From: Candidatus Pseudothioglobus singularis PS1
Lineage (GTDB): Bacteria > Pseudomonadota > Gammaproteobacteria > PS1 > Pseudothioglobaceae
Length of the DNA: 64,000 nt
Direction: 5' to 3'
Assembly: GCF_001281385.1 (NCBI RefSeq)
Contig: NZ_CP006911.1
Location: 372,001 to 436,000, forward strand
Shown: in pieces, positions 43,468-45,963 of the stretch
How positions within the stretch are numbered: position 1 is the first letter of the stretch
Layout of the letters: each line of letters starts with the position of its first letter
The notes under the pieces: model-generated
The model's input: only the letters and a program-made list of their open reading frames with translations
Databases searched by the model: none
What the model was told of the DNA's origin: nothing
Program-made: the position numbers and the translations under genes

Positions 43468-43473
43468 TATAAT
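43468..43473 (+). promoter_or_regulatory. -10 box of the glnK-amtB leader
   Basis: TATAAT positioned so that transcription would start near 43480, two bases before the first leader hairpin. The -35 region is poor and no sigma54 -24/-12 pair is visible. Confidence 0.45.
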
Positions 43474-43481
43474 TAGTCCAA

Positions 43482-43526
43482 CTTGAAGCCAATGTTGGTA
43501 TCAAGAAAAGACATAGACGTTTATTT
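43482..43526 (+). promoter_or_regulatory. ANTAR-type dual hexaloop RNA in the glnK leader
   Basis: Hand folding gives two neighbouring hairpins. P1 (43482-43505) pairs CTTGAAGCC with GGTATCAAG (one A-A mismatch) and has loop AATGTT. P2 (43505-43526) pairs GAAAAGAC with GTTTATTT (one A-A mismatch, two G-U) and has loop ATAGAC. Both loops are six bases with A first and G fourth, the known recognition rule of ANTAR proteins. The 3' arm of P2 is also the 5' arm of the terminator at 43518-43555, so the two folds exclude each other. Confidence 0.75.
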
Positions 43527-43555
43527 GGGCACTTGCCTTAATAAGCGTTTTTTTT
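43518..43555 (+). terminator. Leader terminator 1 (attenuator) before glnK
   Basis: CGTTTATTTGGGC pairs with GCCTTAATAAGCG (one T-T mismatch, two G-U) around loop ACTT and is followed by eight T residues. It would stop transcription before glnK unless P2 forms instead. Confidence 0.8.
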
Positions 43556-43557
43556 CG

Positions 43558-43593
43558 TCAGTTTAAAGATGAGCTGAAATGGTATAGAAGCCC
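43558..43593 (+). promoter_or_regulatory. Second hexaloop pair in the glnK leader
   Basis: TCAGTTT pairs with GAGCTGA around loop AAAGAT (43565-43570). A weaker hairpin, TGGT/GCC, has loop ATAGAA (43584-43589). Both loops again have A first and G fourth. The 3' side of the second runs into the 5' arm of terminator 2. The second stem is short, so this pair is less certain than the first. Confidence 0.5.
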
Positions 43594-43623
43594 ACTACTT
43601 TCTCGAAGGTAGTGGGCTTTTTT
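43588..43623 (+). terminator. Leader terminator 2 before glnK
   Basis: AAGCCCACTAC pairs exactly with GTAGTGGGCTT, followed by six T residues, ending 23 bases before the glnK ATG. Confidence 0.88.
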
Positions 43624-43646
43624 GTTTTTGAGATTGGAGCAATGAT

Positions 43647-43991
43647 ATGAAAATGATTACAGCTTATATTCAGCCAAAAAGACTGGATAGTGTGAGACAA
43701 GTTCTCTCAGATATAGATATAAATGGGGTTTCAGTAACCGAAGTTAAGGGTTTTGGAAGGCAAAAAGGCCATACAGAACTTTATCGCGGTGCTGAGTATG
43801 TGGTTGAATTTCTTCCAAAAGTAAAGTTAGAGATTGCAATTACTGATGAGCAGGTTGAGGAGGTCATTGAGACCATTAGCACTGCTTGTAAGATTAACGG
43901 CGGCAAAATTGGTGATGGAAAGATTTTTGTTACAAATCTGGAACAGGTCGTTCGTATTCGTACGAATGAGTCTGGTCCAGAAGCACTATAG
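43647..43991 (+). CDS. glnK: Nitrogen regulatory protein P-II (GlnK)
   Basis: A 114-residue PII protein. The T-loop is complete with the uridylylation site Tyr51 (YRGAEY), then the B-loop TACKINGGKIGDGKIFV (in parts) and the C-loop VRIRTNESG. PII trimers sense 2-oxoglutarate, ATP and ADP and block AmtB. Nine bases separate it from amtB, so it is GlnK in role. Expression appears to depend on the RNA attenuator in its 191-base leader. Confidence 0.94.
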   Translation: MKMITAYIQPKRLDSVRQVLSDIDINGVSVTEVKGFGRQKGHTELYRGAEYVVEFLPKVKLEIAITDEQVEEVIETISTACKINGGKIGDGKIFVTNLEQVVRIRTNESGPEAL

Positions 43992-44000
43992 GAGAGGAAA

Positions 44001-45215
44001 ATGGAAAATCAAATATTAGAATTACAATATGCAATTGATACCTTTTATTTCTTAGTAATGGGCGCCCTTGTCATGTGGATGGCAGCTGGCTTTTCAATGC
44101 TAGAAGCTGGCCTTGTGAGGAGTAAAAATACCGCAGAAATATTAACTAAAAATATTGGTCTTTTTGCAATTGCATGTACTATGTATATGGTCTATGGCTA
44201 TGACTTAATGTATGGCGGTGGTGCTTTTCTTTCTGGAATTAGTGGACAGGGCGAAACATACTCAAATGCATCTGACTTTTACTTTCAAGTAGTCTTTGTA
44301 GCGACAGCGATGTCAATTGTTTCTGGTGCTGTAGCAGAAAGAATGAAGCTATTTACATTCTTTGCTTTTGCAATAATTTTTACTACTATCATTTACCCAT
44401 TGGAAGGCTCATGGACGTGGGGTGGAAATGATGTTTTTGGTCTATATAACTTAGGTGATTTTGGCTTCTATGACTTTGCAGGATCAGGCATTGTGCATAT
44501 GGCTGGAGCAGCAGCAGCAATTGCTGGGGTAATAGTACTTGGTCCCAGAAAAGGGAAATATGATAAGGATGGGAATTCAAAGCCAATTCTAGGTGCAAAT
44601 CTCCCTTTGGCGACTTTAGGTACTTTTATCTTATGGCTAGGATGGTTTGGTTTTAATGGGGGATCAGTGTTAGCAATGGCAAGTAAGGAGAGTGCAGATG
44701 CAGTGGCAATGGTTTTTGTTAATACCAATGCAGCGGCTGCAGGAGGTGTTATTGCAGCACTTATATTTGCGAAACTATGGTTTGGTAAAGCAGATTTAAC
44801 GATGACACTTAATGGAGCTCTAGCAGGCCTAGTTGCCATTACTGCTGGACCAGATACGCCAAGTGCTCTAGTTGCAAGTTTAATCGGAGCAGTCGGTGGT
44901 GTGATTGTAGTGATTTCAATTGTAATGCTTGATCGTAAACTCAAGATCGATGATCCAGTTGGTGCAATTTCAGTTCATGGTGTTGTTGGTCTTTGGGGTC
45001 TTTTAGCAGTACCCTTAACAAATAGTGAAGTTCCATTTTCAGGTCAAATTATTGGTGCTACAACAATATTTATTTGGGTTTTTGTGACATCATTCTTACT
45101 TTGGCTGACTCTTAAAGCATTGATTGGTATTCGCGTATCCAAGGAAGAAGAGGAAGATGGAGTGGATATCTCAGAATGTGGACTCGAGGCATATCCAGAG
45201 TTTGTCGTTAAGTAA
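44001..45215 (+). CDS. amtB: Ammonium transporter AmtB
   Basis: A 404-residue ammonium channel of the Amt family with eleven predicted membrane segments. Characteristic stretches: GAAAAIAGVIVLGPRKGKY, GWFGFNGGS, NTNAAAAGG and HGVVGLWG with the pore His. No cleavable signal peptide is evident. AGGAGA-like sequence precedes the ATG. It imports ammonium when nitrogen is scarce and is gated by the PII protein encoded just upstream. Confidence 0.95.
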   Translation: MENQILELQYAIDTFYFLVMGALVMWMAAGFSMLEAGLVRSKNTAEILTKNIGLFAIACTMYMVYGYDLMYGGGAFLSGISGQGETYSNASDFYFQVVFVATAMSIVSGAVAERMKLFTFFAFAIIFTTIIYPLEGSWTWGGNDVFGLYNLGDFGFYDFAGSGIVHMAGAAAAIAGVIVLGPRKGKYDKDGNSKPILGANLPLATLGTFILWLGWFGFNGGSVLAMASKESADAVAMVFVNTNAAAAGGVIAALIFAKLWFGKADLTMTLNGALAGLVAITAGPDTPSALVASLIGAVGGVIVVISIVMLDRKLKIDDPVGAISVHGVVGLWGLLAVPLTNSEVPFSGQIIGATTIFIWVFVTSFLLWLTLKALIGIRVSKEEEEDGVDISECGLEAYPEFVVK

Positions 45216-45246: not shown

Positions 45247-45280
45247 CCTCCACTAAAGAATATATATTCTTTAGTGGAGG
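45247..45280. repeat. 34-base perfect palindrome between amtB and the ANTAR gene
   Basis: CCTCCACTAAAGAATAT is followed by its exact reverse complement. It is not followed by a T run on the plus strand, so it is not a standard terminator. It could be an RNA processing or stability hairpin or a protein-binding dyad. Confidence 0.85.
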
Positions 45281-45360: not shown

Positions 45361-45963
45361 ATGAAAAAAAATACAATGAATCAGACTGCCCTTAAAATTA
45401 TTTTAGTCGATGAAAATATGGGCCGATCAGCAATCCTTAGACGTGCTCTTCAGGATAAAGGTCATGAGGTAATTAGTCGTTTAGAGGAAAGTGAAAACCT
45501 TGTCAATAGTAATGAAATTACTCATGCTGACGTTGTCATTGTTAATGCAGACATACCAGATGAGGCTGTTTTTGCTAACCTTAGGGATGTCAACAAAACT
45601 AAGCCAAAGCCGATTGTAATGTTTACAGAGAGCTCTGAGGAACATATGGCTGGAACAGCAATTAAATCGGGCGTTAATGCTTATATTGTTGACGGCCTTG
45701 AAGAGAAAAGAGTGCAGCCAATTATTGATGTAGCCATCGCTCGTTTTAGAGAATTCCAAGCTTTAAAAGATGAGTTAGATGCAACTAGAAGTCAGCTTGC
45801 TGAACGAAAGTCAATAGAAAAGGCCAAGGGTTTATTAATGAAGCACAAAAAAATAACTGAGGATGAAGCTTATCAATCTCTCAGAAAGATGGCAATGGAT
45901 AAAAATAAAAGAATTTCAGAGGTTGCCGATGGCGTTATCAGTGCTATTGAGCTTTTAGGTTAG
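45361..45963 (+). CDS. ANTAR-domain antiterminator (NasT-like) with degenerate receiver
   Basis: A 200-residue protein. Residues 11-125 form a receiver-like domain; 143-195 form an ANTAR RNA-binding domain (LAERKSIEKAKGLLMKHK, EDEAYQSLRKMAMD, RISEVAD). The usual phosphoacceptor Asp four residues before the conserved Pro is Asn62 (NADIP), and the conserved Lys near position 111 is Asp, so phosphorylation control is unlikely. NasT in other bacteria antiterminates nitrate genes. Its location behind glnK-amtB, whose leader carries ANTAR-type hairpins, suggests that it controls that operon. No NasS-like sensor is in the window. Confidence 0.9.
   Translation: MKKNTMNQTALKIILVDENMGRSAILRRALQDKGHEVISRLEESENLVNSNEITHADVVIVNADIPDEAVFANLRDVNKTKPKPIVMFTESSEEHMAGTAIKSGVNAYIVDGLEEKRVQPIIDVAIARFREFQALKDELDATRSQLAERKSIEKAKGLLMKHKKITEDEAYQSLRKMAMDKNKRISEVADGVISAIELLG

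Follow-up and report, generated by a model that had tools for sequence, protein, structure and literature searches.

The dual-hairpin ANTAR element was defined by Ramesh et al. in 2012 (PMC3369931). In the EutV/EutW system of Enterococcus faecalis, dual hexaloop hairpins that overlap a terminator are combined with an ANTAR response regulator, EutV, which is phosphorylated by EutW (PMC3369931). In other bacteria, NasR and NasT control the nitrate/nitrite pathway by ANTAR antitermination (PMC3369931, PMC3795266), and the NasS-NasT system of Paracoccus denitrificans links a receiver-ANTAR protein to nitrogen-assimilation targets (PMC3795266). P-II and ammonium transporter genes are also among the in silico ANTAR RNA targets recorded across bacteria, and the 13 elements distributed over six units in Desulfotomaculum acetoxidans imply that one transcription unit may carry multiple elements (PMC3369931).

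We analysed a 64,000-nucleotide stretch of the genome of Candidatus Pseudothioglobus singularis PS1 (the window), in which the leader of the glnK-amtB operon carries two ANTAR-type attenuators in series. The RNA element and the kind of target gene are the same as in the in silico P-II/ammonium transporter matches mentioned above; those matches, however, are computational and come from other lineages, whereas here the element is double and conserved across one order, accompanied by a single ANTAR protein and a defined regulon. The kind of element and its P-II targets are already known, and what is added is the conserved double element, the aspartate-less regulator and the serC-serA target. Our searches of the literature for ANTAR in connection with glnK or amtB, and for SUP05 in connection with ANTAR, returned nothing relevant. 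We consider it very probable that glnK-amtB is gated by two consecutive attenuators, both opened by the ANTAR protein, i.e. by antitermination in series.

Anatomy of the glnK-amtB leader

Both attenuators lie in the 191 bases that separate the stop of a ligA-like gene (43455) from the start of glnK (43647) (Table 1). A box similar to TATAAT is present at the equivalent site in nearly all glnK leaders of the relatives; the -35 box is weak in this genome and reads TTGACA in some relatives (e.g. L051). Judging from the -10 box, transcription of glnK-amtB likely starts at about position 43480, so that hairpin P1 would be the first stretch to be transcribed.

Table 1. Features of the glnK-amtB region and of the serC-serA leader (window coordinates unless a contig or locus is named)
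Feature	Position	Strand	Basis and remarks
-10 box TATAAT	43468..43473	+	Sequence; likely sigma70-type promoter
Element 1, hairpin P1	43482..43505	+	Hexaloop AATGTT 43491-43496; fold z -4.1; covariation in 73 leaders
Element 1, hairpin P2	43506..43525	+	Hexaloop ATAGAC 43513-43518; loop conservation; weak fold alone
Intrinsic terminator 1	43515..43555	+	Stem 43515-43550; eight T 43548-43555; 5' arm overlaps P2; fold z -6.0
Element 2, hairpin P1'	43559..43576	+	Hexaloop AAAGAT 43565-43570; rule scan; conserved sequence
Element 2, hairpin P2'	43581..43592	+	Hexaloop ATAGAA 43584-43589; three-base stem here; rule scan
Intrinsic terminator 2	43587..43629	+	5' arm overlaps P2'; T runs 43618-43629; terminator scan; fold z -6.4
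glnK, P-II nitrogen regulatory protein	43647..43991	+	Pfam PF00543, E 7e-28
amtB, ammonium transporter, marine subtype	44001..45215	+	TIGR03644, over its cut-off
ANTAR protein, receiver + ANTAR domain	45361..45963	+	PF03861, E 2e-19
Single ANTAR-type attenuator 5' of serC-serA	C1:662559-662672 (L123:2060-2173)		Element-1 model

In each attenuator a short linker joins two hairpins, whose stems have three pairs or more (exactly three in P2'), and all four hexaloops of the window carry A at the first and G at the fourth position. In both elements the second hairpin overlaps an intrinsic terminator, its 3' arm being part of the terminator 5' arm, so that the two folds are mutually exclusive. Terminator 2 is the stronger of the two and sits just 5' of the glnK start.

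The original prediction had placed one ANTAR-type attenuator at 43482-43555. This element is borne out by its sequence, its folds, a rule scan and its conservation; the A1/G4 composition of the loops AATGTT and ATAGAC proved correct in the window, and the predicted exclusion of the antitermination fold by termination can be read from the sequence, the same overlap geometry recurring at both elements. The description as a single attenuator nevertheless covered only the first half of the leader and missed a second dual hairpin with its terminator (element 2, 43559-43629). The folds expected for element 1 were likewise recovered in part. P1 folds at -9.5 kcal/mol, with none of 200 shuffles as good, and terminator 1 at -16.6 kcal/mol (z-scores in Table 1), but P2 alone reaches -0.7 kcal/mol and is no better than shuffles. 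Both terminators clearly outperform their shuffles in folding whereas P2 alone does not, and the predicted default fold is therefore termination.

The rule scan looked for pairs of A..G.. hexaloop hairpins of which the second overlaps a terminator, in the window and in 10 shuffled windows. It returned element 1, a second unit at 43565/43584 and a third at 44633, compared with a single match in all 10 shuffled windows, i.e. about 0.1 per window. The third unit lies inside the amtB coding region and was taken as a chance match.

An Rfam scan of the window detected tRNAs only, and no RNA family was matched at the glnK leader, which would suit hairpins that work protein-free, as a riboswitch or as plain terminators, with ANTAR-like loops arising by coincidence. 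The paired loops, the invariant G4, the overlap geometry and the low chance rate make such an explanation highly improbable, as does the confinement of the element to a family that nearly always encodes an ANTAR protein: the element-1 model gave one match, a weak one, outside the family among 369 genomes of the class.

From the anatomy described above, and from the conservation, protein co-occurrence and recurrence at other operons presented below, we infer how antitermination in series would operate. The glnK-amtB mRNA would start at a sigma70-type promoter and run immediately into the two attenuators. Without the ANTAR protein the terminators would win and transcription would end before glnK, while active ANTAR protein would bind, through its ANTAR domains, both loops of each element and hold the antiterminator fold, allowing the polymerase to pass. 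Full expression of glnK-amtB would then need passage of both attenuators.

Conservation and covariation of the two elements

Both elements are present in all 48 aligned glnK leaders, which represent at least seven genera of free-living and symbiotic bacteria. The P2 loop has A1 in 45 of these leaders and G4 in every one, and in the P2' loop A1 and G4 are invariant in the 47 aligned rows; the P2' stem is GGY/GCC, with a compensating AGC/GCT in three leaders. Positions 2 and 4 of the P1 loop are also invariant, but its first position is A in 39/48 and G in 9/48 leaders, and the P1' loop, a six-base A..G.. loop in the genus of the window, has five bases in many relatives outside this genus. The ANTAR A1/G4 loop rule is therefore not strict in the leaders of the order, and the expectation that relatives would keep AnnGnn loops was upheld by G4 of P2 and P2' but not by the first position of P1 or the length of P1'.

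Covariation of the stems among relatives, which had also been proposed, was found in P1 and in both terminators. In a pooled set of 73 distinct leaders (glnK, nirB, serC and others), P1 pair -3 is formed in 63 leaders, pair -4 in 57 and pair -5 in 66 (shuffle maxima 47, 46 and 49), with 24-28 both-sided changes each; the register in this test was chosen to pair well and the shuffle keeps no phylogeny, both of which overstate significance. In a control in which the partner was slid along the fixed alignment, the paired fraction of P1 fell from 97% to at most 61%. Both-sided changes occur in 7 of the 17 predicted pairs of P1 and terminator 1, and in 5 of the 9 of terminator 2 (in up to 20 sequences). 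The P2 stem is nearly invariant, and covariation thus speaks neither for nor against it; the stems of P2 and P2' are short, and both hairpins draw their support from loop conservation and position. Pair counts for P1' were left unused, since P1' loops of five and of six bases fall together in the MAFFT alignment of element 2. The element-1 RNA model serves as a sequence profile, and the statements on covariation are based on pair counts in the alignments.

The three-base P2' stem of this genome and the five-base P1' loops of many relatives could be taken to mean that a single element works as the ANTAR switch, with the other terminator either insulating glnK constitutively from ligA or being a remnant. 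Moreover, the symbiont L091 has lost element 1 and kept element 2, and most serC leaders (described below) are single. The retention of both elements in every aligned glnK leader, and again in nirB leaders, points in the opposite direction. In addition, terminator 2 lies between the promoter and the gene, and if it were constitutive it would silence glnK. We therefore judge a single working element to be improbable, and prefer two functional attenuators in series.

The ANTAR protein and its gene neighbourhood

The ANTAR protein that had been noticed 3' of amtB was confirmed by its domain match (Table 1). It is the sole ANTAR protein of the 1.71 Mb genome and is likely to be the trans-acting antiterminator. 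An ANTAR protein is encoded in 68 of the 83 genomes of the order, and in 47 of the 49 near-complete ones. The nearest solved structures are 6wsh (a response regulator, the best match), which we take to be EutV, and 1s8n and 4akk, presumably Rv1626 and NasR, respectively.

In a comparison of 62 proteins, a few of which are distant non-orthologues, the phospho-acceptor aspartate is replaced by Asn62 in 55 and the receiver lysine by Asp111 in 58. With the acceptor aspartate replaced by asparagine, phosphorylation of the EutV kind is unlikely. Thus, the system shares with EutV/EutW the dual hexaloop hairpins, the terminator overlap and the ANTAR response regulator, but not the two marks of an EutV-type regulator, i.e. 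an acceptor aspartate and a cognate kinase: nearly all orthologues carry Asn62/Asp111, and no kinase gene adjoins the ANTAR gene. The likeness to NasS-NasT of P. denitrificans lies in the receiver-ANTAR protein and in nitrogen-assimilation targets, which in relatives include nitrite reductase/nitrate transporter operons. It differs in that no NasS-type protein was found (a search with PF13379 at E 0.001 was negative for this genome, and the order yielded few matches, all weak), and in that the main target here is glnK-amtB, with serine biosynthesis in addition. An aspartate-less receiver held by a sequestering partner protein is characteristic of the AmiC-AmiR type.

Nitrogen status is the probable input signal, and it would reach the ANTAR protein through contact with another protein and not through phosphorylation; no nitrogen-sensing mechanism of these bacteria is described in the literature that we searched. 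P-II is a plausible partner of the ANTAR protein. In some relatives a tandem-CBS protein is a further candidate for a sensor partner: in 16 of 52 named relatives, all from outside the genus of the window, its gene is located directly 5' of the ANTAR gene (e.g. L176:5555-5995, L163:5546-5989, L189:5555-5995). In clam symbionts the two genes overlap.

The original prediction also favoured an autoregulated circuit, in which the ANTAR elements are real and the ANTAR protein increases its own level when polymerase reads through into its gene. The ANTAR gene indeed lies 145 bases 3' of amtB on the same strand in this genome, and follows glnK-amtB in many relatives. However, a perfect inverted repeat (45247-45280, CCTCCACTAAAGAAT...ATTCTTTAGTGGAGG), which has no T run, separates amtB from the ANTAR gene and may limit read-through into the latter. 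The linkage is also not conserved: on one contig of G028 glnK (1,054,577) and the ANTAR gene (1,558,683) are about 500 kb apart, in G008, G017, G002 and others they occupy separate contigs and the leader is still present, and in some relatives a CBS-domain gene lies directly 5' of the ANTAR gene. Several genomes thus retain the leader without linkage between glnK and the ANTAR gene, so that autoregulation is possible in this genome but is not a conserved property, and as a general account of the locus we find it rather unlikely.

In one further relative (L151:5202-6588) the ANTAR gene directly follows a ligA-like gene and glnK is found on a different contig, as though glnK-amtB, leader included, had left a former place between the ligA-like and ANTAR genes.

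Other targets and the absence of sigma54

Searching this genome with the element-1 model gave two credible sites, one in the glnK leader with E 2.5e-8 and one at 662567-662610 with E 3.2e-5; the five further matches all have E above 2, the best of them 2.3. The second site lies 5' of serC-serA and has its own overlapping terminator. The serC-leader element is present in nine leaders of the genus, is mostly single, and is absent from more distant serC leaders. No description of serC-serA as an ANTAR target was found in the literature searched.

In mussel and clam symbionts, as well as in free-living relatives, a double ANTAR leader precedes nirB-narK (L141:1990-2191, L244-L251, L253-L255 and others), and a comparison of coordinates placed the element directly 5' of 29 of the 33 common-type NirB genes of the order. 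NirB was recognised by TIGR02374 over its cut-off and NarK by TIGR00886 just under the cut-off; in this genome there is no NirB over the family cut-off. Single or double elements of relatives are also located 5' of serB, a class I FBP aldolase gene and a porin-like gene, and an element precedes a 94-residue ORF accompanied by a two-component pair (gene names by sequence reading). The element at serC-serA in this genome, together with that at nirB-narK in relatives, argues for a regulon acting in trans.

Clam symbionts with 1.0 Mb genomes (L104-L107) have lost the marine amtB and have degraded glnK-leader elements, yet symbionts of this type still possess the ANTAR gene and intact nirB leaders. 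Clam symbionts L091, L103 and L104-L108 retain glnK and the ANTAR gene while their marine amtB is decaying or has gone, and the glnK leader decays in several. In other genera a second P-II-amtB operon is present upstream, with a conserved leader of its own (L070:1-330, L075:1-360, L076:9900-10230); this leader contains short hairpin-like repeats (GCATTGCTGC and similar) 5' of the P-II gene, and no terminator was seen in it.

In enterobacteria, glnK-amtB is controlled by NtrC and sigma54. The operon is the same here, as presumably is the physiological need, but control would be exerted after initiation, and a search of 29 genomes of the genus, among them this one, found no sigma54 (PF04552). 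At the search threshold it is missing from 69 of the 83 genomes of the order. NtrC-sigma54 control of glnK is therefore very unlikely in this bacterium, and the earlier remark that the leader has no sigma54 site gains strength from the lack of a detectable sigma54 in the genome as a whole.

As a tentative and broader proposal, for which we claim less than even probability, a lineage mostly devoid of sigma54 may have rebuilt its global control of nitrogen around RNA. A single ANTAR protein, aspartate-less and with no NasS or kinase partner, would read an internal signal (via P-II, or via the CBS-domain protein in some relatives) and open the attenuators, single or double, of the operons for taking up ammonium, assimilating nitrate and making serine, termination thereby replacing NtrC-sigma54.

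The leader provides a clean case for asking what benefit two serial attenuators offer over one, and it raises the question of what input acts on an ANTAR protein when conventional phosphorylation of its receiver is impossible. These abundant sulfur-oxidising ocean bacteria, with their relatives living as symbionts of mussels and clams, are important dark carbon fixers; if the antitermination reading is right, a single RNA-binding protein would control how they take up ammonium, assimilate nitrate and make serine.
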